64,000 nt of DNA from Pontibacter sp. G13 (GTDB taxonomy: Bacteria; Bacteroidota; Bacteroidia; J057). The position numbers and the translations under genes were made by a program. The notes beneath the pieces were generated by a model. It ran no database searches and was not told the DNA's origin. It was given only the letters and a program-made list of their open reading frames with translations. The stretch is from assembly GCF_031851795.1 (NCBI RefSeq), contig NZ_CP134696.1:7254001-7318000 (forward strand). The letters are read 5' to 3'. Numbering within the stretch: position 1 is the stretch's first letter; each line of letters opens with the position of its first letter. Positions 1 to 18,770 of this stretch are shown here, piece after piece.

Positions 1-1070
1 GGCCAATCCTTCAGATTTTTCAGAATGACACAAGGGGTTCTTCTTGTTATCCACCCCATCGCTTCATTCCAAGCAGGCATGTGCCGCGGCCTGTGTGTTG
101 GGCTTGGGATGCTGCCCTTTCGGGCTTCTTTTTCTTCAAGGTGCCCACGAGGGACAGGTGCCCACGAGGGGCACCTCTACAAAAAGGGATAGGAAGCAAG
201 CGCTGTAGGCGCGACATATCACAGTCAAGGGTTTTCAACCCTTGACCTGCTGTGGGTGCTTCTTCCTGCATACCATAATTTCTATCCCATCGCATCATTC
301 CATAAAGGTATAAGCCGGGGCCTGTGTGTCGGGGCCTTATGTGGAATCTCCCTGCGCTTGAAACTTTCCCGCCCCCACTTCTATGCCTCATCCCGCAAAA
401 TTTCGCAGCGGTGGGATCTGTGGGTGGGGAAATTTATGCGGGATCTCACGCCTCGTGTATGCTAGGGCTTGTATGTTGCCGAGCGAGGAACTGCTTGCCA
501 AGCCCGCTCCACAAGCCCCTTGGAGATCTCTCTTGGGATACCTGAAAAGCTGAACGGGGACCGGATTATCCACTGGCCAGTGCGCTTGCCGAAATCTCCT
601 CGACAAACTTGGTTCAGCCCTGCGTGCGCCCAATCGCGAATCCTATTGCAGGGACGTGTGATCCCTGATAAATCTTCCTCACCCGCCATGTCATCCTGAA
701 CGGTCATAGCCAAGGCCGCGAGCGATGGTGGCCGATTCAGGATCTTGCGGCAACCTTGACATTCATTCATGGCTAGATTCTGAATAAATCTCTTACCCGG
801 AGGCCAATCCTTCAGATTTTTCAGAATGACACAAGGGGTTCTTCTTGTTATCCACCCCATCGCTTCATTCCAAGCAGGCATGTGCCGCGGCCTGTGTGTG
901 GGCTTGGGATGTTGCCCTTTCGGGCTTCTTTTTCTTCAAGGTGCCCACGAGGGACAGGTGCCCACGAGGGGCACCTCTACGAAAAAGGGATGGAAAGAAA
1001 GCGCTGTAGGCGCGACATATCACAAGCAAGGGTTTTCAACCCTTGACCAACCCTTGTTTGGCATCTAGGC
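1..1070. repeat. Mosaic dispersed-repeat block, left flank of the CRISPR locus
   Basis: No convincing gene. The block is built from modules that recur at 15488-18000. Bases 1-31 are the end of the terminal-inverted-repeat element complete at 689-831. Bases 32-245 recur at 832-1045 and about 17796-17996 and include a segment GCGCTGTAGGCGCGACATAT, followed by a palindrome of two arms (CAAGGGTT / AACCCTTG) around TTC at 225-245 and 1027-1045. Bases 250-640 are a second module, recognisable by ATCCCGCAAAATTTCGCAGC near 390, which occurs four more times on the right flank. Short open frames here are repeated with the DNA and show no protein features, so they are treated as chance. The origin of the block lies outside the window. 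Confidence 0.85.
689..831. repeat. 143-bp element with 11-bp terminal inverted repeats, copy 1
   Basis: The element begins TGTCATCCTGA and ends TCAGAATGACA, which are inverted repeats of each other with one mismatch. A second full copy of identical length lies at 17653-17795 and the right end of a third at 1-31. It is non-coding and too small to encode a transposase. A miniature inverted-repeat element or REP-like sequence moved in trans is the likely identity, inferred from size and ends. Confidence 0.7.
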
Positions 1071-1174
1071 TCCTCCCATTTTTTTAAAAAAACAGTGACA
1101 ATAGCTGGCACATATTGAGTGGTTATTGCAGATGCATTCGTCGACTGATCGGATAGTCGCGAGAAATCAATCGT

Positions 1175-1696
1175 ATGATGGCACTAACGAAAAATTGGAT
1201 ATTCCTGCTCTTGATTTGGGGAATTCCACTGGCAGGCGTTCACGGTCAGGATTTAAACCAGATGCAAATTCTTTTGGATGGAGATCTGGATGGAAATGGC
1301 CAATTAGAACAAATTGAACGCACTATGACCTTCATCGCCACGGATGGATTCGAGACCATTGTCCAGAATGAAGATGGGCAATATCATTTCAAAGCGGAGC
1401 GTGCTTGGGTCGGCCATTTATTTGTCTTGTATGCTCGGATGTTTCAGCTCTACGTACAGGAATACGATCTGAAAAGGGGAACCTACGATTACCTTCAAGC
1501 TCGGTTGGTTCTGGAGGCAATGTTGCTCGGGCGACTGGATGGTACGCTAGCGGATTGTCAACGGCTTTATAGAAATCTTTCAGGACTGACCTCCCTGTCC
1601 GCATTGATGGTATTTGAGGGGCTAGTCGAGTCTGATGGCGTTTTAGCTCGGCAACTGATTTTGGAGCACAGGAACCTGTATCAGAAATTCTATTAA
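1175..1696 (+). CDS. Small secreted protein with one EF-hand-type calcium loop
   Basis: A 173-residue protein with a clear signal peptide: a hydrophobic stretch from about residue 8 to 22, with a cleavage-like end at HGQ. Directly after it, residues 37-48 read DLDGNGQLEQIE, which has Asp at loop positions 1 and 3, Asn at 5, Gly at 6 and Glu at 12, the pattern of an EF-hand calcium-binding loop. The remainder (residues 55-173) looks helical and I do not recognise it. Two adjacent ATG codons (1175, 1178) are possible starts. It is followed after 8 nt by another secreted protein on the same strand, so the two are probably co-transcribed. It lies between the left repeat block and the CRISPR operon. 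Function is unknown; calcium binding is inferred from the one motif. Confidence 0.6.
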   Translation: MMALTKNWIFLLLIWGIPLAGVHGQDLNQMQILLDGDLDGNGQLEQIERTMTFIATDGFETIVQNEDGQYHFKAERAWVGHLFVLYARMFQLYVQEYDLKRGTYDYLQARLVLEAMLLGRLDGTLADCQRLYRNLSGLTSLSALMVFEGLVESDGVLARQLILEHRNLYQKFY

Positions 1697-1704
1697 TCGG
1701 AAAA

Positions 1705-2097
1705 ATGAATCATAGAGAATGTTTTGCCCAAAAATCGAAATATATGATATGTTTCATGTTTTCTCTCTTTGGGTTTGTTCAGTGGGTCGAAGCCCAATCT
1801 GTGAATTGCGCGGAACTCATCCATTCTGTGGAGCAGGAAGGGCACCGGAGAGAATTCATCGGCCCCGTGTCATTGGTGAATTCTCATTGGCTATATTCTG
1901 TTGCACTCTATGAACTGGATGGCAGCTATGCTGTGATTGCGGTCATTAAACAGGGATTCATCGGGAGGAAATATGTGTTCTGCGACATATCAAAAAGTCG
2001 CTGGACTGCCTTTCGGAGTGGACTCAATGACCTTGGAACCACCTTCGGAGAACGATTTCAACAATATATCATGGAGTGTCGATGTGATTGTTCGTGA
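1705..2097 (+). CDS. Small secreted protein of unknown function
   Basis: A 130-residue protein. Residues 12-31 form a hydrophobic segment ending in VEAQS, a plausible signal peptide, so it is probably periplasmic or secreted. The mature part contains a short beta-rich stretch (YAVIAVIKQ, KYVFCDISKS) and ends in a small Cys cluster, ECRCDCS. It resembles short uncharacterised Bacteroidota proteins with a similar Cys-rich tail, but I cannot name a family with assurance. It starts 8 nt after the upstream EF-hand-motif gene. An ATG at codon 14 is an alternative start that would leave only the hydrophobic part in front. No functional assignment is made. Confidence 0.5.
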   Translation: MNHRECFAQKSKYMICFMFSLFGFVQWVEAQSVNCAELIHSVEQEGHRREFIGPVSLVNSHWLYSVALYELDGSYAVIAVIKQGFIGRKYVFCDISKSRWTAFRSGLNDLGTTFGERFQQYIMECRCDCS

Positions 2098-2523
2098 TAA
2101 AGAGGAAAGAATCTGGGGCAGGAGATCTCTTCGGCCCCGGATTCCAATTGCTCACAAATATAGTTTCAGAAATTGAGGCCATATGTCAAAAATTGATGGA
2201 CTGGGCAGGGGAAATCGGGTAAAAGGGAAGATATGTTCATTGGCATGCCATTTGGATTTGGAGATTATCGCAGAAATGAAAGCGTATACGTCTGTTAAAT
2301 TTTTTCAAGAGGAATATATTTATATTCCCAATGTGTGAAAGTCTCTGAGGAGATGAAGGGTCTCATTGAAGACAGAAAATACGTATAAATACGGGGGTAA
2401 ATATTCTGTCGATATGGGTATATTTGGGTATGTCTAAATCTACGATTTGTCGACATGAATTTGGTATTTGTATATTGATGTTCAACTAAATCTGTAGAGA
2501 TCGATTGCTAACGGACCAACTAG
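2098..2523. other. A/T-rich non-coding region upstream of the cas operon
   Basis: A 426-nt gap with no credible gene. It becomes A/T-rich towards cas6 and must hold the operon promoter. A string matching the Bacteroidota -7 consensus TAnnTTTG is at 2419-2426 (TATATTTG), about 98 nt before the cas6 start, but no good -33 TTG is seen at the right distance. A loose sigma-54-like string (TGGCAT-N5-TTGGA) is at 2241-2256; it fails the invariant GC at -12. Neither site is firm. Confidence 0.4.
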
Positions 2524-3222
2524 ATGATACAAGATGCTTTTCACTTAAAGGTACTGAAGGTGGTATTTGATACTGAAATCGCACCTTGGGAGGTGCCAGC
2601 CTTCCGTGGTGCGGTAGCGAACAAAGCGGGACACGAGCATGTCCTTTTCCACAATCACGATGGGGAAAAATACAGGTATAGTTACCCGCTCATCCAATAC
2701 AAGCGCCTAGGCCGAAAACCCGCGCTGGTATGTCTTGGCGACGGCGTAGAGGAGGTGCACCGGTTCTTCGAGCAGCGGGATTGGGGAATCGAGATCTCAG
2801 GGCGGCGGTTGGAGATGGTAATAGACAGGATGGAGGTGACTACATCCCATCTGGAGGTTCTGGATAAACAAGCGCCTTTTAAGATCAAGGATTGGATTGC
2901 ATTGAGCCAAAAGAACTGGGGAGAATATAACTCACTGGAGCGGGAGGTCGACCGGATCATATATCTGGAAAAGAAGTTAACTGCCAATATTCTGTCTTTT
3001 GCCAAAGGAATTGGATGGCATGTAGACAATGAAATCCAAACACAAATCACTAGTCCTGTCAAAATACATTCCGTCAACCACAAACGAGTTGCCTTTCAGG
3101 GGCATGACTTGGAGTTCAAGGTGAATATCCAGTTGCCATCAGGAATTGGACTTGGGAAAGCTGCGAGTTCCGGTTGTGGACTAATCTTGAAAAATGATTC
3201 ACCTTCAAATTTTGCGGCATGA
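2524..3222 (+). CDS. cas6: Cas6-family CRISPR RNA endoribonuclease
   Basis: A 232-residue protein and first gene of the type III-B operon. The diagnostic feature is the glycine-rich loop near the C-terminus, LPSGIGLGKAASSGCGLI (about residues 204-221), typical of Cas6 RAMP proteins, which cut pre-crRNA inside each repeat and leave an 8-nt 5' handle. The N-terminal half is the expected first RRM-like fold, with His at 37, 39, 43 and 45 as possible catalytic residues; which one acts cannot be told from sequence. Its stop overlaps the cmr1 start in an ATGA arrangement, indicating translational coupling. Repeats of the array at 14872-15486 end in ATTAAGAC, a plausible handle for this enzyme. The family is divergent, so the call rests on the loop and on context. 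Confidence 0.8.
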   Translation: MIQDAFHLKVLKVVFDTEIAPWEVPAFRGAVANKAGHEHVLFHNHDGEKYRYSYPLIQYKRLGRKPALVCLGDGVEEVHRFFEQRDWGIEISGRRLEMVIDRMEVTTSHLEVLDKQAPFKIKDWIALSQKNWGEYNSLEREVDRIIYLEKKLTANILSFAKGIGWHVDNEIQTQITSPVKIHSVNHKRVAFQGHDLEFKVNIQLPSGIGLGKAASSGCGLILKNDSPSNFAA

Positions 3223-4196
3223 GTATATATAAATGTAAGGTGCTGACCCCCATGTTTATGGCTGGGGCAGATCAGACTAAGGCAGAGTTACGATCTGCTT
3301 CATTTAAAGGAGCTTTGCGATTTTGGTGGCGGGCGCTTTATGGAGGGAAGGATGTAAGGGGAATGCGCAAACAGGAGCGCGAACTATTTGGAGGGGTAGG
3401 TGAAAATGGAGAAGCTAGAAGAAGTAAGGTGCTTCTAAGGGTAGTGGGAAAGCCAAATGGAAGTAAGGCTCCAATTTCAACGAAAAAAGACTTTCAGGTA
3501 AACGGACATGAAGTAAGCATATTTAGCTATTTAGGATATGGTTCAATGGGTAGCAATAATGCCTTACAAGAATACATTCCTCAAAGTACTGCTTTTGAAT
3601 TGACGGTAGATTGTCCAGAAGAATTTAAAGAGCAAATAGAAAACAGCTTGGCTGTTATGGCAAGTATAGGGGGAGTAGGTGCTAGATCAAGGAATGGATT
3701 TGGAACTTTTGAAGTTCTAGAAAGTTCCATTCCTAGTGCAGAAGCTGTTTTTCAGCGATTCGCATCAGGGGAGATAAACTCCTACACTTCCCTTTCTGAT
3801 AAGTCTCGACTTTTTAAAACTACCGATAGTTTTGAAAGCCCATTAGAAGCTTTTCGTACAATTGGTTTATTGTACAGAAAGGCAAGACTAGATATCGATG
3901 ACCCTAAAATATATGACAATCGAAAATTTATTGGTGCACCTCTTAATCAGGATAAACTCATAATATCTAAACCTAGGTCGGAAAAGAAAGAATTGAACAG
4001 ACATTCCAAACCATTTTTCATAGGAGTGGAAAAAACAGATAGTGAAACATATAATGGATATTTAGCATATCTGCCTTATAGGTTTCTAGAAAAACATGAT
4101 GAAGCTAAGGATCCAAACTTGCAGCGCAATTATTTTCATGCTATGGAACTTATGAATAGTATTTTTTCACAATCCTCAGCACTAACCGAAGTTTAA
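3219..4196 (+). CDS. cmr1: Type III-B CRISPR RAMP protein Cmr1 (Cas7 group)
   Basis: A 325-residue protein. The N-terminus carries the Cmr1 hallmark SASFKGALRFWWRALYGG (about residues 27-44) after a strand ending in LTPMFMAGAD. A second glycine-rich stretch near residues 148-162 (IGGVGARSRNGFGTFEV) matches the RAMP G-loop. Cmr1 caps the Cmr effector at the end that meets the 3' part of the crRNA/target duplex. It starts inside the cas6 stop and ends one base before cmr2, so it is part of a tightly packed operon. Length is close to that usual for the family. No damage is seen. Confidence 0.93.
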   Translation: MSIYKCKVLTPMFMAGADQTKAELRSASFKGALRFWWRALYGGKDVRGMRKQERELFGGVGENGEARRSKVLLRVVGKPNGSKAPISTKKDFQVNGHEVSIFSYLGYGSMGSNNALQEYIPQSTAFELTVDCPEEFKEQIENSLAVMASIGGVGARSRNGFGTFEVLESSIPSAEAVFQRFASGEINSYTSLSDKSRLFKTTDSFESPLEAFRTIGLLYRKARLDIDDPKIYDNRKFIGAPLNQDKLIISKPRSEKKELNRHSKPFFIGVEKTDSETYNGYLAYLPYRFLEKHDEAKDPNLQRNYFHAMELMNSIFSQSSALTEV

Positions 4197-4197
4197 A

Positions 4198-6021
4198 ATG
4201 AAATACCTATTCCTATTCACCATAGGTCCGGTGCAATCTTTCATTGCTCAGGCCAGAAAGACGAAAGACCTGTTTGCAGGTAGCATGATTCTGTCAGAAT
4301 TGATAGGCGATGCGCTGAAGGAAACGCAAAGCGTTTTTAAGGAAGTGGGAAGTGCCCAATTTATTTTTCCTGCATTCGATGGAACAGATACCAAGGAGGC
4401 TTTGCCCAATCGGTTCTTGGTCGAGGTTGATCTCAGAGAGGAAGTTGACCTGAGGACTTATGGCAATCGAATCGAGCAGTTTGTCAGAACTAGCTGGGCA
4501 AAAATGGGCGATGAAGCCTTGGAAAGAAACGTAAAAGGCAGATTGTCCGATGATTTTCATACTCGGTTCAACGATCAAATGAATGGACATCTTGAGGTGT
4601 ATTGGATATTCCAGCCTATCGGAGATGATGGGTATGCAGAGGCATATAAGGCGGTGGAGCGCAATTTGGGTTCAGTGAAAAACCTGAGGCCTTTCGTTCA
4701 GATTTCCCAAGCAGGATTTCCTGAGAATCATCGGAAATGTTCCGTTTCTGGGACCCGAGATGCTGTATTCTTTCGAGAAAAAGATAAACCTGCTTTTGCA
4801 TACGAAGATGCTGCAAAAATCGAGGAAAAGTCTGGGTATGAATTGAATATCGGAGAGGGCTTGTCAGCACCTGTGTTTACAAAACGATTCTTCAAGGAAA
4901 AAGCGAAATTCCACTCTACGGCAGAAATTGCCGTCGAACCTTGGAAGGAAAAAGTGAAAAAGTGTAAGGAGGGAAGTCGCCTGTTGGAAAGTTTCAGTAT
5001 TCAGACTGGATCTTCTAAGGATGGACAATTGTACTTCATAGATAATTGGTCTGAAGCTTATTTGAAGAAGCATGAACTCAAGAGTCTCGCAATAGCAAAA
5101 GAAAAGACCAAGGAAATCTTAAAATCCCTATATGGTTCTTTCGGGAAGCCAGCTCCTTATTACGCCTTGGTTTCCTTCGATGGAGACAAAATGGGAGAAT
5201 GGCTCAATGGAATATCTAAGGGAGTAAAGGAAGATCAATTGATGTCCTATCACCAGAAGCTTTCTGCACTATTCTCAAAGTTTGCTGGCTATGCGAAAGA
5301 GTATGTAGACCAAGGAAGAGGGAAAACGGTGTATGCAGGCGGAGATGATTTTTTGGGGTTCTTGCACGTAAATACCCTGTTGGAGACGATGGAACACCTG
5401 AGAGTGGAATTCAACTCGATGGTAGCAGATCCAATCAAGTCAGATTATGGCATAGGGGGAAAAGATCGATTGAGCTTTTCAGTCGGAATCATCATTGCCC
5501 ACTATAAAATGCCGTTGAACTCGGTGGTTCAACAAGCCAAGGAGGTCGAAAAAGTCGCCAAGAAGAAGGGAGGACGGGATGCCTTTGCAATTCGTGTTAT
5601 TAAGCATTCAGGTGAGATCAACGAAATGTATGCGAAATGGGAATTTGACCCAGATTCAAAATCCTGCAAGGCGATTGCCCGGATGAATTATATCATCCAT
5701 TCCCTAAAGGAGAAGAGGTTTTCCAATAAATACATATCCTCGATAACCCAGACTTTTCAAGAGGTGTTTGGTCGAGAAGGATATTCCTTTGATAAAAGTA
5801 ACTCGGAATTGGGTGAAGCAAAAAAATGGTTGCCTATGGAACTTGGCAGACTAGTTCGCCGCTCCAAGCAGGTAGGAACATCCGAAAGTCAAATAGAAGA
5901 GATGGTTCATTGCATCCAAGAGACCTTTACACAATCAAAAAAAGTAAATGCTGATTCCTTTTCCATTTTCAACTATATCTATGGACTCCATGCCATGGAT
6001 TTTATTAGCAGATACGTATGA
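4198..6021 (+). CDS. cmr2: Cmr2 (Cas10) cyclase subunit without an HD domain
   Basis: A 607-residue large subunit of the Cmr complex. It opens directly with FTIGPVQSFIAQARKTKDLF, the start of the first palm region; the roughly 200-residue HD nuclease domain that precedes this in long Cmr2 proteins is absent. The second palm domain has the metal-binding string DGDKMG (residues 328-333) and an intact GGDD at 381-384 (bases 5338-5349), so cyclic-oligoadenylate synthesis on target-RNA binding is expected while ssDNA cleavage is not. The region around residue 180, where many homologues have a four-Cys zinc site, has only one Cys (NHRKCSVSGTRDAV). The last 4 nt overlap the start of cmr3. Family knowledge: GGDD makes the second messengers sensed by CARF proteins, several of which are encoded in this locus. 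Confidence 0.95.
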   Translation: MKYLFLFTIGPVQSFIAQARKTKDLFAGSMILSELIGDALKETQSVFKEVGSAQFIFPAFDGTDTKEALPNRFLVEVDLREEVDLRTYGNRIEQFVRTSWAKMGDEALERNVKGRLSDDFHTRFNDQMNGHLEVYWIFQPIGDDGYAEAYKAVERNLGSVKNLRPFVQISQAGFPENHRKCSVSGTRDAVFFREKDKPAFAYEDAAKIEEKSGYELNIGEGLSAPVFTKRFFKEKAKFHSTAEIAVEPWKEKVKKCKEGSRLLESFSIQTGSSKDGQLYFIDNWSEAYLKKHELKSLAIAKEKTKEILKSLYGSFGKPAPYYALVSFDGDKMGEWLNGISKGVKEDQLMSYHQKLSALFSKFAGYAKEYVDQGRGKTVYAGGDDFLGFLHVNTLLETMEHLRVEFNSMVADPIKSDYGIGGKDRLSFSVGIIIAHYKMPLNSVVQQAKEVEKVAKKKGGRDAFAIRVIKHSGEINEMYAKWEFDPDSKSCKAIARMNYIIHSLKEKRFSNKYISSITQTFQEVFGREGYSFDKSNSELGEAKKWLPMELGRLVRRSKQVGTSESQIEEMVHCIQETFTQSKKVNADSFSIFNYIYGLHAMDFISRYV

Positions 6022-7109
6022 AGATATTTATTGAGCCCTTCGATACGCTTTTCTTCAAGGATGGAAAGCCTTTTTCTATGGGAGAGGATAATTGGGCAGA
6101 TGGCCATTTTCCCCCAATGCCCTCTGTCTTCTACGGAGCATTGCGATCTGCCTATTTTTCCCAAAACCCGAATCAATTGCATTTGGCAAATGAAGAGGGA
6201 GATCCGACTCAAGATTTAGTGATATCTAGGATTCATGTTGCCAGAAATGATAAAAGGCGTGTTGTTGGATATATTCCTTGTCCGATGGACGTGGTGAAGG
6301 AAAAGAACAACAATAGCAATCAGGACCAATATCACATACTTGAGGTAGGAAATTCTGACAGCAGTCAAATTTCTAGTTCTCCGATTCCAACTCAATTGAG
6401 GTCTTCGGCTCCCGAACGGGTGGAGTATGACAAATCTTCATGGTTCAATTTAGGAAATTGGAATAAGTATGCTACAGGAGAAATTCGGGAAAGTAGCTTA
6501 AAAAATACGAGTAAATTTTTAATCCATGAACCTAAAATCGGGATTGGGAGAAGCAGGTATACTGGTAGCTCAGAGGAGGGCCAATTGTATCGGGTTGGAA
6601 TGAAAAGAATGTGCAAGAACTATGGATTTGTGGTGGAATTCTCGGGCCTGGATTCTCTTCAATCAAATGGGATTCTCAAGTTGGGTGCCGAAGGGAAAGG
6701 AGCTTCTTATCATGAGATAGACAAACCTTTTGATATCCCCAATACTCCTCGCAAAACTGAACCAAAGAAGGTGAAGATGATCTTTACTACTCCTGCTGTC
6801 TTTAGTCAAGGTTGGCTTCCCAAAGGGGTAGATTTAAAATCTCTTGAGGGTGTATGGAATGGGTTTAAATTGAAAGTAACTCACGTATGTGTGGGGGCTT
6901 TCGTTTCGATTGGCGGATTTAACATGAAGGCTGGAAAAGGGATGAAAGTTGGGCCTAAACCCATGTATAGGGCAATACCTGCTGGTTCTGTTTTCTATGT
7001 CGAACCTGAAGACTTTGATGGCTTCATTGAGGCATTTCACGACCGTTGCATATCAGAATTCGGCCTATCTCGAGAAGGTTTTGGGCATATTTTATTACAG
7101 GTGGTATAA
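6018..7109 (+). CDS. cmr3: Type III-B CRISPR protein Cmr3 (Cas5 group)
   Basis: A 363-residue protein. The N-terminus FIEPFDTLFFKDGKPF followed by FPPMPSVFYGALRSAY is the characteristic Cmr3 opening, and a C-terminal stretch GGFNMKAGKGMKVGPKPMYR contains the RAMP G-loop. Cmr3 binds the crRNA 5' handle next to Cmr2 and anchors the guide. It begins within the cmr2 stop codon region (ATGA overlap). Length and motifs are as expected, and nothing appears broken. The next reading frame on the strand starts 18 nt after its stop. Confidence 0.93.
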   Translation: MKIFIEPFDTLFFKDGKPFSMGEDNWADGHFPPMPSVFYGALRSAYFSQNPNQLHLANEEGDPTQDLVISRIHVARNDKRRVVGYIPCPMDVVKEKNNNSNQDQYHILEVGNSDSSQISSSPIPTQLRSSAPERVEYDKSSWFNLGNWNKYATGEIRESSLKNTSKFLIHEPKIGIGRSRYTGSSEEGQLYRVGMKRMCKNYGFVVEFSGLDSLQSNGILKLGAEGKGASYHEIDKPFDIPNTPRKTEPKKVKMIFTTPAVFSQGWLPKGVDLKSLEGVWNGFKLKVTHVCVGAFVSIGGFNMKAGKGMKVGPKPMYRAIPAGSVFYVEPEDFDGFIEAFHDRCISEFGLSREGFGHILLQVV

Positions 7110-7127
7110 TATTCAAAATCATAAGTC

Positions 7128-7229
7128 ATGAAGGTCATTACAACAGTTGGGACATCAATTTTTTCCAATTATTTTGATAGTAAAAGGTCAATACCTCAAG
7201 AATTTAAAGAGGTATATAACGATACCTAA
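7128..7229 (+). pseudogene. Amputated N-terminus of the CARF nuclease, ended by an in-frame TAA
   Basis: An ATG at 7128, placed 18 nt after cmr3 as expected for the next operon gene, encodes 33 residues beginning MKVITTVGTSIFSNYF. That string is a CARF-domain first strand with the GTS ligand-binding turn. The frame hits TAA at 7227-7229 and then continues open, in the same frame, through KKDADEYSDFEDIDI into the 7293-8579 gene. Changing one base of the stop (for instance to AAA, GAA or CAA) restores a protein of about 484 residues. The stop sits beside a run of A residues (TAAAAAAAGG), so a sequencing or assembly error is possible, although no frameshift is needed on either side. Confidence 0.75.
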
Positions 7230-7292
7230 AAAAAGGACGCGGATGAATATTCAGATTTTGAAGATATCGACATTCCGACGCTGAAGGATGGA

Positions 7293-8579
7293 TTGAAGGA
7301 GGGGTATATCCCATGGATAAAGAAGGAGTTATCTATATCTGCGGAAATACAAACATTAGAAAAGCTTTACAATGAGAAGTTTCTAGACACCGGTTTGGAG
7401 AAAAAAGGGAAAACTTTCAAAGTCTTTCTGCTTGCAACGGATTCGATTCACTCAATTGTTGCCTGTGAGTTGATCAAGGAGTTTTTAGAGGAATCCGAAC
7501 TGCAAAATATCAGCGTTCACTTTAGTCGAGAAGGAACCGTATTGAAAGGGATGAAAATTGATGATGCAGAGGAGTTCCGCCAATCTGGCATCATGAATTT
7601 GTTTGAACAGGTTCATTCAATTTGGAAGGGGGGAGAATCATCAGAAAATATTCATAAAAAAAAGGGGACAATTAAGGAGCTAGTTATCCTAAATATATCT
7701 GGAGGATATAAAGCTATGGCTCCTTTTATGGTCTTGATGGGGCTTCTTTATCAAATTCCAACCGTGTATATGTATGAAGGGGAAGAGGAATTACTAGAGT
7801 TTCCTCAGCTTCCATTCAGGTTTGCATTCGGCATTATGGATGAATTCCAATACTTCGCGAAAAAGGAATCATTTGTTTTGCCAACTGAAAATAGCTCGGA
7901 GGGAAAAGTATTAAGAACTCTTGTAAATGATTACCATTTATTCTCCATAGATAAGGAATCAAGCAAATATTCCATAACTGCCCTAGGGGATCTTTTTTCC
8001 GAATTTATGAGGAGGAACCACCTAGAATCTGACAGGGTTTTGGGGCAATATGTAGAGCTGTTGATGTACAAAGAACTTTCTGAGAATAGACCCTACGAGG
8101 ATCGTAAAATGATTCATAGTCGGGAGATTTCCTGTATGGTGGAAGGAAAGGAAATCGAAAGTGAGCTTGATTTTCTGTTCGACCACGAAAGCGCGGAGGA
8201 TGGCATTATCTTTTATGAGGTAAAATCAGCCAGGTTACTCATCGACTTTGGAGAGAGTGTCAAAACTCAAATACTGAAGCAACTGAAAATCTTGAAACAT
8301 CTAGGAGAAGATGTGAAACAAGCAGTATTGGTAATATATTTCACTGTAGAAAAATATCAAGACACTTCAATCCTAGATGCCTGGATTTTAGAAATTTCCG
8401 AAGCAGTAAGAGAATTTTCCAATCAATCAACTGAGTTTGCTGTGAAATATATGGAATTGAAGTTGAAACCAGCTTCGTTTAAGGATAGCAATCCATATCT
8501 GGCGCTATTCTCAGGGAAAAACCAGCATAGATTTCAACCTAAACCTTGGACGATTCAAACAACAGAACAACATGTATAA
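7293..8579 (+). CDS. CARF / winged-helix / PD-(D/E)XK nuclease, N-terminally truncated (Can2/Card1-like)
   Basis: The intact remainder encodes up to 428 residues from a TTG at 7293. Residues about 45-190 carry the rest of a CARF fold, with a strand and loop LVILNISGGYKAMAPF typical of APE2256-type CARF proteins. A helix-turn-helix-like middle follows (about 205-265). The C-terminal third has a restriction-like nuclease core: ESELDFLF (about 290-297) and IIFYEVKSAR (about 307-316), giving the D...ExK triad. This order matches the cyclic-tetra-adenylate-activated nucleases Can2/Card1. Loss of the first CARF strand by the upstream TAA should abolish ligand binding, so the product may be dead or unregulated. 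It overlaps cmr4 by 8 nt, and its position inside the cmr operon shows it belongs to the system. An internal ATG would be even shorter. Confidence 0.7.
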   Translation: MKEGYIPWIKKELSISAEIQTLEKLYNEKFLDTGLEKKGKTFKVFLLATDSIHSIVACELIKEFLEESELQNISVHFSREGTVLKGMKIDDAEEFRQSGIMNLFEQVHSIWKGGESSENIHKKKGTIKELVILNISGGYKAMAPFMVLMGLLYQIPTVYMYEGEEELLEFPQLPFRFAFGIMDEFQYFAKKESFVLPTENSSEGKVLRTLVNDYHLFSIDKESSKYSITALGDLFSEFMRRNHLESDRVLGQYVELLMYKELSENRPYEDRKMIHSREISCMVEGKEIESELDFLFDHESAEDGIIFYEVKSARLLIDFGESVKTQILKQLKILKHLGEDVKQAVLVIYFTVEKYQDTSILDAWILEISEAVREFSNQSTEFAVKYMELKLKPASFKDSNPYLALFSGKNQHRFQPKPWTIQTTEQHV

Positions 8580-9528
8580 AAAAGCAAAACCGCTAGTACT
8601 CGTCTGCGAAACTCCCATGCACGCCGGTGCAGGGAACGATTTGGGGATTGTTGATCTCCCTATCCAGCGCGAACGACACACTTCATTTCCCAAAATTGAA
8701 AGCTCCAGCTTCAAAGGGGCTGTCCGAGAAAGACTAACAGGATTGCTTGAAAATGGAGATACGGATGCCCTAAATGACATTAATCGGACATTTGGTCCAC
8801 CCAGTGAGGCCGAGGACAAGCATGCTGGAGCGCTTGGATTTACAGATGCGCGTCTCCTGTTCTTTCCGATCAAGTCCATGAAGGGAGTTTTCGCCTATGC
8901 TACCTGCCCAATGATTTTGGAGCGATTTGCCAAAGATTTGAAGCAGGCAGGAGTTGCTCCTGAGGTTGATTTCAGTAATTTTTCGATCCCTGATGATACG
9001 GCTTGGGTACACAGAAATACAGCCATTGTGATTAACCATGGTGCCACTAAAAAGTCTGTCATCTTGGAAGCTTATGCTTTTTCAGCGAAAGTGAAGGACG
9101 AAGTTGGAGAGTTCGCGAATTGGCTTGGAGGTTCCGTATTCTCCGGAATGGGAGAGGTGTTCCAAATGCGGATTATGCAGAATCTAGTGATTCTTCCGAA
9201 TGACGATTTCAAAGATTTTGTCAATCTGTCTACCGAGGTCATCACAAGAACCAAAATCGACCAGGCTTCTGGTACTGTTCAAGATGGCGCATTGTTTACG
9301 GAGGAATACCTTCCTCCCGAATCGATTCTTTATACCCTTGTATTGGCAGCTCCAGTTTTTTCCGTCAAAAAGAATGATCCACGCAAACTGTCAGGAGGCG
9401 GTGAAGAAGCCGAAGATGTGCTTCAATTCTTCGAGAAAGCTTTGAATGAAAAAGCGAAAAGTCGCCTTCGAATTGGCGCGAATGCCACGCTAGGAAAAGG
9501 CATCGTTCAAACCACATTTATCAAATAA
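8572..9528 (+). CDS. cmr4: Type III-B CRISPR backbone RNase Cmr4 (Cas7 group)
   Basis: A 318-residue protein. Cmr4 forms the helical backbone of the complex and cuts target RNA every six nucleotides. The N-terminal motif PMHAGAGNDLGIVDLPIQRE (residues 15-34) contains His17 and Asp28, which align with the His15 and catalytic Asp26 described for archaeal Cmr4; SSSFKGAVRERL follows. The C-terminal IGANATLGKGIV is the RAMP G-loop. Slicing of target RNA is therefore expected to be intact. The ATG lies inside the end of the CARF nuclease gene, so the broken gene could affect Cmr4 translation by polarity. cmr5 starts 4 nt after its stop. Confidence 0.95.
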   Translation: MYKKAKPLVLVCETPMHAGAGNDLGIVDLPIQRERHTSFPKIESSSFKGAVRERLTGLLENGDTDALNDINRTFGPPSEAEDKHAGALGFTDARLLFFPIKSMKGVFAYATCPMILERFAKDLKQAGVAPEVDFSNFSIPDDTAWVHRNTAIVINHGATKKSVILEAYAFSAKVKDEVGEFANWLGGSVFSGMGEVFQMRIMQNLVILPNDDFKDFVNLSTEVITRTKIDQASGTVQDGALFTEEYLPPESILYTLVLAAPVFSVKKNDPRKLSGGGEEAEDVLQFFEKALNEKAKSRLRIGANATLGKGIVQTTFIK

Positions 9529-9532
9529 GGAC

Positions 9533-9946
9533 ATGGGAGAATTGACAAAATCAAAGAGGACCACGATCGAGCAGGGAAGAGCTGCCTTTGCTTTCGAAAA
9601 GGTCGAAAGTGTCCCCGAAAAAAATATCAAGGAGTATCGCTCTTTAGCTAAAAAGCTCCCAATGTATATAAAAACCAATGGATTAGGAGGAGCATTCGCT
9701 TTTTCTCATTCCAAAAGTAAATCGGGAAACGAGCATGAATTGATCTTGAAACATATTAGCAGTTGGTTGGGAGATCCAAAATCCTTTGTGCCTTTTGATT
9801 TGCCTTCAGATAGCAAAGGCCTTTTAGAGGAATTGATAAACATGGATTCAACAGCTTATCGAATGATAACTACTGAAGTGCTGTCTTACCTGAACTGGGT
9901 GAGGAGGTTTGCTGACTCAAAGGTTGAGGAACTTAAATCCAAATGA
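9533..9946 (+). CDS. cmr5: Type III-B CRISPR small subunit Cmr5 (Cas11)
   Basis: A 137-residue protein, predicted helical, within the usual length of Cmr5. The segment EYRSLAKKLPMYIKTNGLGG (about residues 38-57) followed by FAFSHSK matches the family's characteristic 'K-x-LP-x-I-x-x-NGLG' region. Cmr5 packs along the Cmr4 backbone and helps bind the target strand. It lies 4 nt after cmr4 and directly abuts cmr6. The call is strongly supported by both motif and position between cmr4 and cmr6. Confidence 0.9.
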   Translation: MGELTKSKRTTIEQGRAAFAFEKVESVPEKNIKEYRSLAKKLPMYIKTNGLGGAFAFSHSKSKSGNEHELILKHISSWLGDPKSFVPFDLPSDSKGLLEELINMDSTAYRMITTEVLSYLNWVRRFADSKVEELKSK

Positions 9947-9947
9947 T

Positions 9948-11153
9948 ATGATTGAGGCAAAAATTCGAGTTATCATAAAAGATGGAGGAATAGAAGCCAA
10001 AGTTCGACTAGAGAAAAACAGGAAAGCCTGGAAATATGCTAATGAGTTTGAATTTGGTTTCGTTACGAATGGATGGGAGAAATGTCTAATCAATGGATGG
10101 CCCGATTTCTCTGAAATAGAGTACAATGGGAAAACTATCCCAATAAATGAACTGATTTTGCATGAAAGGGAGACTGAAGCACAGAAAAAGGAAGAAAGAA
10201 ACTTAGCGCGGAAAGAAGCAGAGAGACTTCAAGAGGCGCTAAAAAAAAGCGATTTGGGGCATTTACTTCCCAAGGATACGCGAAAAGTTCTGGCATTTGT
10301 AGAACCCAAATCCATTGATTCTCTCCATCAATACATTAACCTCGCACTTCCAACTGATCGCCCGAAAAGTAAGGAGTCTAAGGACGAGTTATCCCTTGCT
10401 CGATTCAAAAACCAATCCTTCCAAGATCAGGGACTCCCTGACAACATGGAACACACTGCAAGGGAGCTGCTAGGAGAGGCTTTAACGGCCACTTTGACTT
10501 GCAAAACTTCTAGTCGCCTAGCATTAGGCCTGGGAGGCGGTAGTGTTTACGAAACTGGCCTTACCCTCCATCATGTCTATGGAATCCCTTACATTCCCGC
10601 CAGTTCGGTAAAGGGAGCTGCGAGATCTTGGATTATCCAACAAGTATTCGACGGAAAAGAAAGTTTGGCAATTAAGAATCAGCGGTTTTGCGACTTGTTT
10701 GGCTGCCCCTCGGTGCTGTTGGTGGAAGAGGGTGGAAAGAAGAATCAAGTAACAAGCTATTATGAGGGCTTGGGAGATCCTTCCATTTCCGGCTCCCGCC
10801 AAGGCTGCATTACTTTCTTCGATGCATTTCCAGTAGGTGAAGGGCAAGTGGAAAAAGATATCATGACCCCGCACTATGGGGATTATTACACGAAATCGGA
10901 TGATACTCCTCCAGCTGATTATCTGGAACCATCCCCTATTGAATTCCTCACAGTAGCAGCGAATACTAAATTCAAATTCATCCTCGGGCAGCATCGAAAT
11001 TTGCCATTGGCTCCTGCTGGAAATACCCAGATCTTGGGCGGGGAGGGTGACTCCTATTTGGCAATTGCCTTCCATTGGTTAGAACTGGCACTGTTGCAGC
11101 GCGGCATAGGCGCCAAAACTGCAGTAGGATACGGATTTATGGAAAAGGTGTAA
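9948..11153 (+). CDS. cmr6: Type III-B CRISPR RAMP protein Cmr6 (Cas7 group)
   Basis: A 401-residue protein from the ATG at 9948, one base after the cmr5 stop; an in-frame TTG at 9909 inside cmr5 would add 13 residues and is less likely. The first 150 residues are lysine- and glutamate-rich (for example around EAQKKEERNLARKEAERLQE) and look like an extension with coiled-coil character. The RAMP core follows, with the Cmr6 signature LTLHHVYGIPYIPASSVKGA (about 207-226) and a final GIGAKTAVGYGFM G-loop. Cmr6 caps the backbone near Cmr1. The N-terminal extension is longer than in archaeal Cmr6. Confidence 0.93.
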   Translation: MIEAKIRVIIKDGGIEAKVRLEKNRKAWKYANEFEFGFVTNGWEKCLINGWPDFSEIEYNGKTIPINELILHERETEAQKKEERNLARKEAERLQEALKKSDLGHLLPKDTRKVLAFVEPKSIDSLHQYINLALPTDRPKSKESKDELSLARFKNQSFQDQGLPDNMEHTARELLGEALTATLTCKTSSRLALGLGGGSVYETGLTLHHVYGIPYIPASSVKGAARSWIIQQVFDGKESLAIKNQRFCDLFGCPSVLLVEEGGKKNQVTSYYEGLGDPSISGSRQGCITFFDAFPVGEGQVEKDIMTPHYGDYYTKSDDTPPADYLEPSPIEFLTVAANTKFKFILGQHRNLPLAPAGNTQILGGEGDSYLAIAFHWLELALLQRGIGAKTAVGYGFMEKV

Positions 11154-11171
11154 AAACGGAATGTGATAACT

Positions 11172-11564
11172 ATGGGAACCAAATTGTTTCTGCTCTTTTC
11201 CCATTCTTTGGGAGAAGAGCAGAAGGAGGATGCGAGAAGGAGATTTGGGGTAGAGCAATTTGTCCCGCTCCCAGAGTCCCTGCAAAAAGCATGGAGTAAT
11301 GTGCCTCCGGATTTACCAGAGTTGAAGGACTTTCAACTTCCCATCAGGAATTGGCTGTTTCAACATGCCACGGCTGGAGACTACGTATTGGCTCAGGGGG
11401 ATTTTGGGATGGTATATCATGCCGTACAAGATGCTTGGAATCTCGGGTTGATTCCGGTTTATGCAACGACTTCCAGAGAGTCCAAGGAAACAATCCAAGC
11501 TGATGGTTCTGTTAGGACCCAGCGAATCTTCAAACACGTTCAATTTAGAATTTACGGAAAATAG
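11172..11564 (+). CDS. csx20: Csx20-like CRISPR ancillary protein, putative ring nuclease
   Basis: A 130-residue protein from the ATG at 11172 (an in-frame GTG lies at 11163). Recognisable pieces are LFLLFSHSLGEEQKEDARR near the start, then FVPLPESLQKAWSNVPPDL, GDYVLAQGDFGMVYHAV and IPVYATTSRES. I recognise this layout as Csx20, a small family restricted to type III loci; from memory, members have been reported as ring nucleases that degrade cyclic tetra-adenylate, which would switch the effectors off. It is encoded between cmr6 (18 nt upstream) and the Csx1 gene (2 nt downstream), consistent with dose-matched production of an effector and its brake. The family name is a recollection and needs a profile search; the CRISPR linkage is clear from the operon. 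Confidence 0.6.
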   Translation: MGTKLFLLFSHSLGEEQKEDARRRFGVEQFVPLPESLQKAWSNVPPDLPELKDFQLPIRNWLFQHATAGDYVLAQGDFGMVYHAVQDAWNLGLIPVYATTSRESKETIQADGSVRTQRIFKHVQFRIYGK

Positions 11565-11566
11565 CC

Positions 11567-12919
11567 ATGGCGAATATTCTTGTTTTGATGTTGGGGACCG
11601 GTAGAGCTTCGCTAACAGAGGGAAAACAGTTGGAATACCGGACTGGAACGTATGTTCGATCGGATGGTGGTCAAGGTGAGGTGATTACCTCATTTGTCGG
11701 AGAGGCGATTGTCCGCTTGTTTTCTGAGGAGTCATTTGATAAAGTCTATATCCTTGGCACTAAAAATTCACAATGGCACTCTGTGTATGCCCATAGCATC
11801 AACGAAACTGCTACTGACAAGGAGCTCGACTGGTTTGAGAAAATTTCTGAAGAAATTGATCGTCCTCAACCAACTAGACCAGCTTGGATCAAGGAAGTGG
11901 AGCGAGCTTTTGGAGAGAAAATCGGGGTAAAGGTTGAATGTCAAATTACACCTGTAGGTAGAAACGAGGAGGAGCTGTGGAACCTGTTTGAGACAATTGT
12001 TAAGATTCCTGCTGAGGGAGATAAAATATCAATTGACATTACGCATGGGCTTAGGTTTCAACCCATGTTCATGTTGTTGGGACTCAATTATTTGAAAAGT
12101 ATTGCTGAGAATATCCAGATTGGGCGAATTTTCTATGGCGCATGGGAACTCGGGAATGAATATTATGAGGGGAAAGCACCTATCTATGATCTTTCTACTT
12201 TTCTGGACTTGGTTGATTGGATTGATGGAGCCAATTCACTTCAGCGTTATGGCGATATGAAACCCATTCTAGATATCGCAAAGGAAAAAGGGTTTCCAAG
12301 CGCTTTCATTCAGAAGGGGAAGGAGTTTGATCTTGCTCTTCAGCTTAACAAAGCAGGGCTGTTGAGTTACCAGGCTGGAGCTTTCCACAGTCAATTGATG
12401 AAGGTGAAGAAAGATGAGACATTAGACTTCAAGCCGTATCAATTGGTTTCGAAAGCCATCGAGCGTCTTCCTGCCCAGATTCTCAAAGAACAACAACCAT
12501 GGCGGGAAATGCTGTTGATGGCCGAAAGGCATCTCGATAAAGAGAATCAAATGACCTTAGCTATACTTGCCACATGGGAAGCAATTATTACCAGATTGGA
12601 GGCGCTATATCCAAGTATTACAGGCCTACAAGGGTTCGATAAATACAAGAAAATGGGATATGTTGCCCGAAACGGAAAGGTTGATGAAATTCGAGGCACA
12701 CTTACGAACTTTTCTAAAAATGCCAAGCGACTTAGTGAGTTTCGGAACTATGTAGCACATGTTCGAATAGAGGAAAAGGACACTCTGAACCCTAAAATAA
12801 TCTTGGACGAGTTTCCTCAATTGTTTAAATATTTCAAACAAGCGCTTGAATCTTCGGAAATGGACTTAATTCCCCAGAAACTCCCAATTTCTCCAAAGGA
12901 GGCAGTTGACGTCCCCTAA
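11567..12919 (+). CDS. csx1: Csx1-type CARF-HEPN ribonuclease (DxTHG family)
   Basis: A 450-residue protein. The N-terminal CARF domain (about 1-200) contains DITHG at residues 157-161, the signature of the DxTHG branch of Csx1. The C-terminal domain has an R-x4-H motif, Arg393 to His398 in FRNYVAHV, the active site of HEPN ribonucleases. Such proteins dimerise, bind cyclic oligoadenylate made by Cas10 and then degrade RNA non-specifically. Both key motifs are intact, so this is likely the working effector of the locus. It starts 2 nt after the Csx20-like gene and its last 4 nt overlap, tail to tail, the convergent sigma-54-type regulator. The last 25 residues (LIPQKLPISPKEA...) are a low-complexity tail. 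Confidence 0.88.
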   Translation: MANILVLMLGTGRASLTEGKQLEYRTGTYVRSDGGQGEVITSFVGEAIVRLFSEESFDKVYILGTKNSQWHSVYAHSINETATDKELDWFEKISEEIDRPQPTRPAWIKEVERAFGEKIGVKVECQITPVGRNEEELWNLFETIVKIPAEGDKISIDITHGLRFQPMFMLLGLNYLKSIAENIQIGRIFYGAWELGNEYYEGKAPIYDLSTFLDLVDWIDGANSLQRYGDMKPILDIAKEKGFPSAFIQKGKEFDLALQLNKAGLLSYQAGAFHSQLMKVKKDETLDFKPYQLVSKAIERLPAQILKEQQPWREMLLMAERHLDKENQMTLAILATWEAIITRLEALYPSITGLQGFDKYKKMGYVARNGKVDEIRGTLTNFSKNAKRLSEFRNYVAHVRIEEKDTLNPKIILDEFPQLFKYFKQALESSEMDLIPQKLPISPKEAVDVP

Positions 12920-14361
12920 TCCGCATACTTAATCACCGTATTCGGAGACACTCCAAGAAGCTCTTTCGCGCGACGCTTGTTCCCGCCGCAAAGCTGTACT
13001 ACTTTCTGGATGTGGGCGCGTTTGACCGATTCCAGCGTCAGGTCTGCTTTCGGGTTCACATTCCGATAATCTGGCGGTAGGGCATCTATGCCCACACATT
13101 CTTCGCCATACACATTCAGATAGGTGAGGATGTTGGCCAGCTCCCGATAGTTGCCCGGAAATTCATAGAGCGCGAGCCATTCGGTCAATGCTTCGTCAAA
13201 TGCCAGTGGCTTGGCTCTTTTCCCTTGCTCTGAAAATTGGCCATTCATCCGTTGGATCACCTCCATTCGCTCATGCATCGGATATTCCCGCAAACTGGGC
13301 AGATGAATCGGTACCTGCGAAATTCGGAAGTATAGATCCCATCTGAAGGCGCCGGTTTCACAGTGGCTCCGAAGGTTTTGGTGGGTCGCGGTGATCAATC
13401 GTACTTGGACGGCAGATTCCGTCGTTTCACCGATCGGTAGAACTTTTCCATCTTGGAGCGCTCGAAGCAATGATACCTGTGTCTCTGGGCTGATTTCTCC
13501 GATTTCATCGAGGAACAAGGTCCCATGATCTGCCTGCTGGAAGAATCCCACTTGATCCCGATTCGCTCCGGTGAAGGCTCCTTGCTTATGTCCGAACAAA
13601 CGAGACTCGATCAGATCCCCGCGGATCGCTCCGCAATTCACCGAGACCAGTCGATTTCCAGCGCGCGGAGAATGCTGATGAATATGACGTGCCAATAGTT
13701 CCTTGCCTGTGCCCGTTTCCCCCTGAATCAGAATAGAAACCTCTTCCCGCGCTGCCCGCTCTGCATGTCGATAAACCGATTCTAGGCACGGTGCGAGCCA
13801 ATTGTTTGATAACGAACTCTTTTGGTGGAATGCCTGCAGCCGGTAGGCTACCTTGGAGTTGCTGATCACGAGCTCCCCAAATTCGTGCGGGTTTCCCGTT
13901 ACCTCCTTTCCCTTTCCTTGAATCAATCGGGTGTTCAGGTCGTTTTGCTCGAGATGGATCAGGCACCAGCCGAGGCGTTGCGCAGTCGTGCCCGTATTGA
14001 ACAAAATATCGATATCATCCTCCCGGAATTCCCGCAGTACCGCCTCTTCTGCGCGCTTGATTTCTAACGTATCAAACTTGTCGGTGAGCGGCACTATCCG
14101 TAATTCGATGTCTCGATCGGGAAAGGCTTTTCGGATTTTCCCAAGCAGCATCTCTGCCTTATAGAGTACATCGTCGGCTGTTTCATGGCAACAGAGGACA
14201 TGTTTGCTATGTGGACGATCCTGCCCAAAAAACAATCGGTGTAGGTTCAGATTGGGGCTATCTGGCGAGATGTTGGAGTAGGGGGGAGGAAAAGCGTCAG
14301 GATGCGGGTGTTGCAAGAAATCCGAGGTGAATGCCACCCAGGACACGATGATATGGGCCAT
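12916..14361 (-). CDS. CARF-like / sigma-54 AAA+ / HTH transcription regulator (RtcR-like)
   Basis: A 481-residue enhancer-binding protein. Residues 1-180 form an alpha/beta region ending in DILFNTGTTAQRLGW, which resembles the CARF domain of RtcR. The AAA+ domain follows: Walker A GETGTGKE (214-221), GAFTGA (261-266, the sigma-54 contact loop), Walker B LFLDEIGE (about 282-289), and a helix-turn-helix at 455-481 (GGNKRRAKELLGVSPNTVIK). It should remodel RNA polymerase holding sigma-54 at an unknown promoter. Classical RtcR controls RNA-repair genes; no rtcA/rtcB is nearby, whereas a cyclic-oligoadenylate-producing locus is adjacent and convergent. It lies between the cas operon and the array leader. 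A role in tuning cas or array transcription, or in spreading the alarm, is an inference. Confidence 0.8.
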   Translation of the reverse strand: MAHIIVSWVAFTSDFLQHPHPDAFPPPYSNISPDSPNLNLHRLFFGQDRPHSKHVLCCHETADDVLYKAEMLLGKIRKAFPDRDIELRIVPLTDKFDTLEIKRAEEAVLREFREDDIDILFNTGTTAQRLGWCLIHLEQNDLNTRLIQGKGKEVTGNPHEFGELVISNSKVAYRLQAFHQKSSLSNNWLAPCLESVYRHAERAAREEVSILIQGETGTGKELLARHIHQHSPRAGNRLVSVNCGAIRGDLIESRLFGHKQGAFTGANRDQVGFFQQADHGTLFLDEIGEISPETQVSLLRALQDGKVLPIGETTESAVQVRLITATHQNLRSHCETGAFRWDLYFRISQVPIHLPSLREYPMHERMEVIQRMNGQFSEQGKRAKPLAFDEALTEWLALYEFPGNYRELANILTYLNVYGEECVGIDALPPDYRNVNPKADLTLESVKRAHIQKVVQLCGGNKRRAKELLGVSPNTVIKYAD

Positions 14362-14461
14362 GTGTAGAAGGTTTGGGGAAGCGAATATACCGGAACCAAA
14401 GGTGCATTCAAACGCTTAGCTCGGAATAGTTGTGCGCTGTTGATTCGAGGTGTCATGGGGA

Positions 14462-14652
14462 TTTGGGTGTGTCCTGCCGATCTGGAAATGGTGAGTTCCA
14501 TCTGGATAGTCGAGTCGGCAGGTCGGTCCCTTTCGCGCTCGCTGGCGCTCGGTCTCGGATCTGGGGGCGAGAGATCGCCGCTCCCAGATCCGAGACTCCG
14601 CCTATCGGCGGCCGCTTCAGGCACCTCACACCACACCAGCCATCCGCACACT
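14462..14652 (+). repeat. GC-rich dispersed intergenic element, copy 1
   Basis: One of five related elements (others at 20501, 27334, 48461 and 50441). This copy starts with TTGGGTGTGTCCTGCC, contains GGTCGGTCCCTTTCGCGCTC, a perfect-looking hairpin of two arms around 14562-14602 (CTCGGATCTGGG / CCCAGATCCGAG) and ends ATCCGCACAC. It separates the regulator gene from the array leader. Copies are GC-rich, non-coding and found in both orientations, as expected of a REP-like family. Confidence 0.7.
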
Positions 14653-14871
14653 TGATTCTGGCTTCGAGAATGCCCGTTTTAGGCGAATAATCTGTATATT
14701 GGAAAGGATTCGCTCATTGAAATATGGTATTGCATAGGTTAAATATTTTATCTAATTTTGTCCCTCCAAAAATGAGGGGGACCACTTTTCGCCAATTGGC
14801 TGGAATCGCCGTTTCTCAACAGGGTCAAAACAGTTAGTTTGTTGATTATCAGTATTTTATAAAATGTTGCT
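14653..14871 (+). promoter_or_regulatory. Probable CRISPR leader
   Basis: An A/T-rich stretch directly before the first perfect repeat, ending in GTTGATTATCAGTATTTTATA. It is placed at the leader end because the opposite array end has a truncated repeat and because the repeat's ATTAAGAC end would then form the crRNA 5' handle, as in other type III arrays. It should carry the array promoter; no definite -7/-33 pair was identified. It contains no gene. Confidence 0.5.
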
Positions 14872-15486: not shown

Positions 15487-15487
15487 T

Positions 15488-18000: not shown

Positions 18001-18233
18001 GTGGCCTGGCGGCCCGGCCCGGCGACCCATTGGCCGAACGGAACCACGATGCCGAGCTCGCCGGGACACCCTATCCAGATCTCATCCCCCCAAACGCAGG
18101 GGCTCCAATTCCCTAAAATACCGGAAACCGTGACATTAGCTGGCATCGTAGATTCGGTAATTGTCAATGATTCCCACTCGGGAGTGTCCAGATTGGCTTC
18201 ACATTCAGGTATAAATCAATCTATTCAATCCAC

Positions 18234-18668: not shown

Positions 18669-18696
18669 GTCTTCTACTCGCCTTGCCAACAACCAA

Positions 18697-18729
18697 AAGG
18701 GTGCCCGCAGTCTCGCTACGGGCACCCTT
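18697..18729. terminator. Bidirectional hairpin terminator
   Basis: Arms AAGGGTGCCCG and CGGGCACCCTT surround a 10-nt loop between two convergent genes ending at 18668 (+) and 18771 (-). A run of A residues precedes the hairpin, which gives a U tract for the - strand. Confidence 0.75.
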
Positions 18730-18770
18730 AACTTCAAATAACTACAAGTAGCTACAAGAGAAAGTCCTGA

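Follow-up and report, generated by a model that had tools for sequence, protein, structure and literature searches.

The type III-B CRISPR–Cas locus in the window (the whole 64,000-nucleotide stretch of DNA analysed here) carries, between cmr3 and cmr4, the gene of a CARF effector whose reading frame is interrupted by a single nonsense codon, TAA 7227–7229, and is open beyond it. The neighbouring genes are unbroken, homologues share a conserved start equivalent to that of the interrupted frame, and a Runella plasmid carries an independent in-frame stop in the same kind of gene, of which an unbroken, near-identical allele exists elsewhere. We consider it probable that one of two effectors was lost here by nonsense mutation, probably recently, from a locus that should otherwise still work; that function was lost, that this happened recently in the window genome and that the remaining system is still active are what we infer from these observations.

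An in-frame stop within an unbroken operon

The features of the locus, in window positions, are as follows.

2524–3222, plus strand: cas6 (PADLOC Cas6, 7.6e-44)
3219–4196, plus strand: cmr1 (PADLOC Cmr1, 9.6e-29; PF03787)
4198–6021, plus strand: cas10/cmr2 (PF22335, 2.5e-32; PADLOC Cas10, 3.8e-82)
6018–7109, plus strand: cmr3 (PF09700, 3e-42)
7128–7229, plus strand: N-terminal piece of the effector, CARF strand 1 and TTVGTS loop (aligned with homologue N-termini)
7230–8579, plus strand: remainder of the effector, with SAE helix, GGYK motif, winged helix and PD-(D/E)XK nuclease (ELDF...YEVKS) (PF09651, 3.2e-18; Cdn1 profile match, 2.8e-4; predicted structure)
7293–8579, plus strand: longest product past the stop with an ATG, GTG or TTG start (TTG 7293), without residues 1–55
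8572–9528, plus strand: cmr4 (PADLOC Cmr4, 1.9e-70), its ATG overlapping the effector end by 8 bases
9533–9946, plus strand: cmr5 (PF09701, 1.7e-34)
9948–11153, plus strand: cmr6, start approximate (PADLOC Cmr6, 5.1e-43)
11163–11564, plus strand: csx20, ring nuclease family (NF040559, 4.7e-46, above cut-off)
11567–12919, plus strand: csx1 (CARF-HEPN), second effector, unbroken (PADLOC, 1.4e-57; TIGR02221, 8.8e-37)
14872–15486, no strand assigned: CRISPR array of 9 repeats of about 37 bases, the last incomplete (repeat detection)

The effector frame opens with ATG 7128, 18 bases past the cmr3 stop, runs for 33 codons (MKVITTVGTSIFSNYF...NDT) to TAA 7227–7229, which runs into a tract of seven A, and then stays open in the identical frame for 449 codons, ending with TAA 8577–8579 at cmr4. 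The initial annotation had described such an interruption with continuation beyond it, and the description is correct. Codon usage in the effector frame resembles that of the neighbouring genes, both over the 63 bases from the stop to TTG 7293 (7230–7292; +0.40 bits per codon) and over the rest (+0.25), whereas the remaining two frames over the effector region score −0.43 to −0.61 bits per codon. Because coding-like usage is confined to this frame and the N-terminal piece (7128 onward) aligns with homologues that have an equivalent start after cmr3, the two stretches are, on this sequence evidence, one gene, a chance overlap being ruled out. The uninterrupted frame of a functional type III effector gene is lacking, owing to TAA 7227–7229. 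In the window, the first standard start (ATG, GTG or TTG) after the stop is TTG 7293, which is preceded by AAGGATGGA.

The nine neighbouring genes from cas6 to csx1 are all open and match their families, bearing out the earlier view that the surrounding cas genes are intact. The Cas10/Cmr2 translation has a GGDD motif (YAGGDDFLGF), and Csx1 carries DITHGLR and RNYVAH, the latter of which we take to be its HEPN motif. In the whole genome (7.67 Mb in three contigs) a single Cas10 palm match was found, which gives no sign of another type III locus as a source of the effector, and a protein search with the downstream piece as query found no second copy of the effector in the genome. The 8-base overlap between the cmr4 start and the effector end means that a polar effect on cmr4 and later genes is possible.

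Several features lie around these genes. A gene for a sigma-54 activator (12916–14361, minus strand) separates csx1 from the CRISPR array; the activator scores 251.8 bits with RtcR (NF038308), for which the cut-off is 650, and its first 190 residues match the PADLOC family RtcR_PspF2 CARF_AAA_HTH (1.1e-6), so that it may be a third CARF sensor, controlling transcription. Within the array (14872–15435), repeat copies 1 and 8 are alike into the spacer (91% over 54 bases, as compared with 74–78% for the others). The only two Cas1 matches in the genome (contig 1, 1663221–1664099 and 6678462–6679184) are far from the III-B locus, and spacer uptake by the window array would therefore depend on these distant genes. 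Furthermore, the locus is flanked by long direct repeats (1–1050 and 15399–18001; for example, 642–941 and 17606–17905 are 98% identical over 300 bases), through which recombination could, judging by their sequence, delete or move the whole III-B locus; across the genome, these 300 bases find 130 matches, three of them full length.

Homologues and a second break in a Runella plasmid

Homologues were collected by genome searches, one contig scan (27 loci) and a plasmid search (3 records). From the resulting loci L001–L050 and the window, we retained a working set of 23 CARF plus PD-(D/E)XK proteins, the window's included. Second copies of one gene (L001, L034, L007, L015, L031, L035 and L050) were dropped, as were CARF-RelE, other-CARF or short proteins (L004, L005, L010, L012, L014, L019, L020, L022, L025, L028, L029, L032, L033 and L043–L049) and L042, a 592-codon frame of possibly the same kind. 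Nuclease-type proteins were judged from alignments; the motif expression alone missed 9 of the 23. Counts out of 22 omit the Runella protein, a near-identical allele of L023; both are in the set of 23. No effector homologue was found in the order's 21 further genomes, of which 12 belong to the family, in a first contig scan with a single effector protein or in a viral-contig scan with the effector alignment. Likewise, one DNA pattern from the effector region had no exact match in viral contigs, and no DNA similar to that region was found in phages.

Twenty-one of the 23 effectors have an unbroken frame that opens at the position corresponding to 7128, in two of them (L016 and L027) with TTG/GTG instead of ATG, and all 21 share strand 1 and a GTS-type loop at the N-terminus; the two broken members are the window gene and that of Runella sp. 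SP2. The initial annotation had raised the possibility that homologues naturally start downstream of 7293, which this distribution contradicts: the stop is a lesion. The gene lies between cmr3 and cmr4 in 22 of the 23 loci; in L009, cmr1 additionally lies between, and the L021 contig stops short of cmr4. Some other loci show peculiarities, and three of the dropped ones are marked as broken. L028 (Thermoanaerobacterium saccharolyticum NTOU1, 7995–9150) encodes a CARF homologue, probably RelE-type, with frameshifts at A-tracts, the first of them just past the conserved SAE motif; the genome is a draft, and this may be a sequencing error. L005 matches the nuclease part weakly (E 9.7e-4) and contains one internal TAA, and L046 (a 191-codon frame) has stops at the end of its CARF match. 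In the further locus L026 (13579–15291) csx1 and csx20 are seemingly fused into a 571-residue frame.

On plasmid pSP2_2 of Runella sp. SP2 (NZ_CP031032.1), the effector has its own in-frame TAA in the same insert and is annotated as two hypothetical proteins flanking the stop. This type III-B locus shares the cas6-to-cmr6 order and the effector family with the window and keeps Csx1 and Csx20, but is plasmid-borne, has csx1 before csx20, and encodes an effector of 24.6% protein identity with an independent nonsense position. Past this stop, no ATG, GTG or TTG occurs until ATG 9986, which follows the invariant Ala-Glu; in the deposited annotation, the second protein begins with an ATT (9947) just ahead of the Ala-Glu. 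Among the eight nuclease-type loci judged for csx1 (the window and 7 of 17 examined, those with at least 3 kb past the last core gene), a small sample, five have csx1, both broken genes among them.

L023, from a Cytophagales metagenome-assembled genome, carries a near-identical unbroken allele of the Runella gene (456 residues), the DNA of the two being 92.2% identical over a 6-kb match that includes cas genes. In L023, cmr6 and csx1 are separated by a gene for an AAA-type ATPase (12165–13322; motif GPRQSGKTTL); none is annotated there in Runella. The two effector genes differ at 42 positions over 455 codons. The 374 codons past the Runella stop hold 8 nonsynonymous and 20 synonymous differences (dN/dS 0.095), and ahead of it dN/dS is 0.167; the ratio is 0.112 for cmr3, 0.205 for cas10, 0.219 for cmr1, 0.307 for cmr6, 0.329 for cmr4 and 0.47 for cmr5 (3 differences), cas6 being too divergent. 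With the cmr3 value as the constrained ratio, the probability of at most 8 nonsynonymous differences is 0.087 if the Runella frame was neutral for 10% of the branch, 0.012 for 20% and 2e-12 for 100%, which makes neutrality for more than about 10–20% of the branch unlikely. Thus, either selection still acts on the frame or the Runella gene was broken recently. The differences are unevenly spread (none in codons 226–300), which suggests recombination and weakens this estimate.

The window gene shows some signs of decay. It keeps the smallest share of columns conserved at the 80% level (41 of 57; next lowest, 42 of 55) and at the 90% level (31 of 38; next lowest, 32 of 37), and alone among the 22 deviates at columns 142 and 206. 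It also retains the universally conserved residues and coding-like usage past the stop, 7230–7292 included. The lower conservation is compatible with mild or older decay, or with an old divergent lineage.

Sensor, nuclease and the position of the stop

The effector part after the stop matches the Pfam family PF09651 (APE2256) with 66.3 bits against a cut-off of 24.8, as do all four homologues scanned, and this is the only family above cut-off for the sensor. The top PADLOC labels for the downstream piece are CARF_RelE (1.5e-37 over 8–258 and 6e-37 over 2–319), which agrees with the sensor but disagrees with the C-terminus; the library label alone would file the effector there. Instead of a RelE domain, the C-terminus has the invariant residues Asp348, Glu364 and Lys366, and the PD-(D/E)XK motif residues, as in Can2/Card1, are present in 22 of 22 sequences. 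A profile built from 17 sequences matches the nuclease part of Cdn1 (8z4i; E 2.8e-4), and the C-terminus scores 21.9 bits with the SfsA RE-domain, slightly below the cut-off of 22.8. We modelled the read-through chain, with alanine at the stop, together with 16 homologues (mean pLDDT 74.4, pTM 0.59); residues 1–300 of the model resemble Cami1, Sis0811 and Sso1393 (Z 19.3–20.8). From the PF09651 match, these structural likenesses and the Cdn1 profile match, the effector is, as modelled, a Crn1/Cami1-type CARF sensor joined to a winged helix and a PD-(D/E)XK nuclease. The domain order that had been proposed for it, CARF, winged helix and PD-(D/E)XK, is thus upheld. So is its disruption through a single nonsense codon.

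When the sequences are aligned, the stops of the window and of Runella both lie in a stretch of variable sequence that separates strand 1 from the conserved (Ser/Cys)-Ala-Glu helix; a helical bundle inserted directly after strand 1 is described for the SSO1393/sll7062 group (PMC4012209). If stops fell evenly, the chance that both nonsense breaks lie in this one insert would be about 0.018, a value computed post hoc. Fifteen columns are identical in all 22 sequences, the window's among them: three (Gly8, Ser10 and Asn14) precede the stop and twelve follow it, including Glu73, GGYK 192–195 and Asp348/Glu364/Lys366. Ser10 and Lys195 align with the ring-nuclease residues S12 and K169 of Sis0811, whose structures carry mutations there (S12A; S12G/K169G). 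In the CARF7-RelE protein SyCsm6 of Synechocystis, ring-nuclease activity has been linked to S12 and E70, and ligand binding to K167 (PMC9676260); the counterpart of E70 is presumably Glu73. In Cdn1, Thr9 and Gln11 of the N-terminal loop contact the bound cyclic oligoadenylate (PMC12825302). The window stop separates the GTS-loop Ser10 from Lys195 of GGYK, which are not encoded in one polypeptide, and no downstream product from an ATG, GTG or TTG therefore has a complete cyclic-oligoadenylate pocket. Re-initiation, which the initial annotation had offered as one option, could in the window give, from a standard start, only a product without Gly8, Ser10 and Asn14.

Origin of the break and relation to known effectors

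We propose that the ancestral gene encoded an effector activated by cyclic oligoadenylate, with a CARF7/APE2256 sensor and a predicted self-limiting ring-nuclease pocket, and that it was disabled, probably not long ago, when a nonsense mutation arose in the insert that follows CARF strand 1. The 33-residue peptide would be useless, and products started downstream would lack strand 1 and the Gly-Thr-Ser loop of the pocket. Cas10 most likely still makes cyclic oligoadenylate, to which Csx1 would respond and which Csx20 would degrade; the arm lost would be a nuclease that attacks nucleic acid, and the III-B locus should keep working via Cmr, Cas10 signalling and Csx1. Active ring-nuclease function has been reported for Csx20, along with a strong association with Csx1 (PMC12409355). 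Effectors that share one messenger commonly co-occur (Csx1 alone in 284 loci, combined in 127; PMC11229360), and losing one of two should thus be tolerable. Of the options raised in the initial annotation, we favour gene loss; silencing to limit toxicity, which it had also raised, may have played a part, and the locus retains a second effector (Csx1) and a ring nuclease (Csx20). The occurrence of both known nonsense breaks in the same insert speaks against a plain random loss, which does not strongly predict it.

A sequencing or assembly error, with an unbroken gene and an active effector in the organism, is unlikely. The stop is read from the deposited assembly alone and runs into the seven-A tract, and the remaining frame is open with the universally conserved residues retained. 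After an indel in a homopolymer, the two sides would be in different frames; they share one, so an error would have to consist of two compensating errors or a consensus substitution; moreover, the nine neighbouring cas and csx genes are open, and an independent nonsense codon occurs in a Runella plasmid deposited as complete. If the break is real, the N-terminal peptide and a body re-initiated at TTG 7293 could assemble into a low-dose CARF protein. The position of both known breaks, in a variable insert where a cut may plausibly be tolerated, is consistent with such a split, as are the purifying selection on the frame past the Runella stop, the sequence AAGGATGGA ahead of TTG 7293 in the window and the Runella annotation that starts the second protein at ATT 9947, ahead of the invariant Ala-Glu. 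A recent break explains the selection signal equally well, however, and in Runella the first standard start (ATG 9986) lies beyond the Ala-Glu, so that a complete body requires the rare ATT; 7230–7292 would be untranslated despite its coding-like usage, and the 23 proteins include no third split member. We regard a split effector as improbable. The same low standing applies to the broader proposal that a break past CARF strand 1 is a recurrent, tolerated dial-down, of separate origin in the window lineage and Runella, which leaves two polypeptides or a trace of full chain as a low-dose effector beside Csx1.

Read-through or recoding, which would supply a trace of full-length effector and keep toxicity low, is very improbable: the initial annotation had listed it, and the in-frame continuation and the conserved catalytic residues accord with it, but we found no support for read-through of UAA. 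Both release factors recognise UAA, the least leaky of the stop codons; the context of the Runella stop differs, and in a search of window positions 1–20000 with Rfam no known RNA element reached the gathering score. Phase variation, with the gene turned on or off by slippage within the A-tract that follows the stop, has next to no probability. A T followed by seven A stands at the stop and the Thermoanaerobacterium homologue L028 is frameshifted at A-tracts, but the Runella stop lies outside an A-tract, and TAA survives any number of A in this frame, so that slippage cannot open it. The reading that we prefer is a real lesion and a gene loss that is most likely recent and ordinary in kind.

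The interest of the case lies in the second, independent break and in the unbroken family. Surveys of type III effectors typically scan annotated proteins, and the loss of an effector through a single nonsense codon, as in the window and Runella, is easily missed; near-identical loci may differ in their effector by one codon. Among the literature matches listed, naturally broken or split CARF effectors are not the topic of any title or abstract opening, and in a paper on Ligilactobacillus salivarius CRISPR–Cas (PMC11288051) 'premature stop codon' occurs once. In the unbroken family, a sensor of the Crn1/Cami1 type, which by prediction cleaves the molecule that activates it, is joined to a Can2-like nuclease; Can1 and Can2 are reported to be without intrinsic ring-nuclease activity (PMC12409355), and if the prediction is true, the family would be their self-limiting counterpart.

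Cami1 (CARF-RelE; PDB 8phb and 8phj) resembles the window effector in sensor and winged helix: it gives the best Foldseek matches (E 1.1e-12), superposes on the effector model with Z 20.2 over 244 residues (rmsd 4.0), and is named as APE2256 family in the PDB, to which PF09651 likewise assigns the window sensor; its C-terminus is RelE, whereas that of the window effector is PD-(D/E)XK, and the window copy is interrupted. The Crn1-like proteins Sis0811 and Sso1393 (7pq3, 3qyf) resemble residues 1–299 in CARF and winged helix (7pq3: Z 20.8, rmsd 3.5, 263 aligned), but have no C-terminal nuclease, and ring-nuclease activity of the window effector is a prediction. Can2, Card1 and Cdn1 share the overall logic of a sensor joined to PD-(D/E)XK (Card1 in Foldseek, 7.8e-7). 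The likeness to Can2/Card1 thus stands for the nuclease part, which is Cdn1-like, and falls for the sensor part: this is of the APE2256/Crn1/Cami1 kind and not the CARF4 kind of Can2/Card1 (Z about 20 with Sis0811 and Cami1, about 12 with Card1 and Cdn1), and whole-chain superposition with the Can2/Card1/Cdn1 group is poor (Z 10–12, rmsd 21–24).
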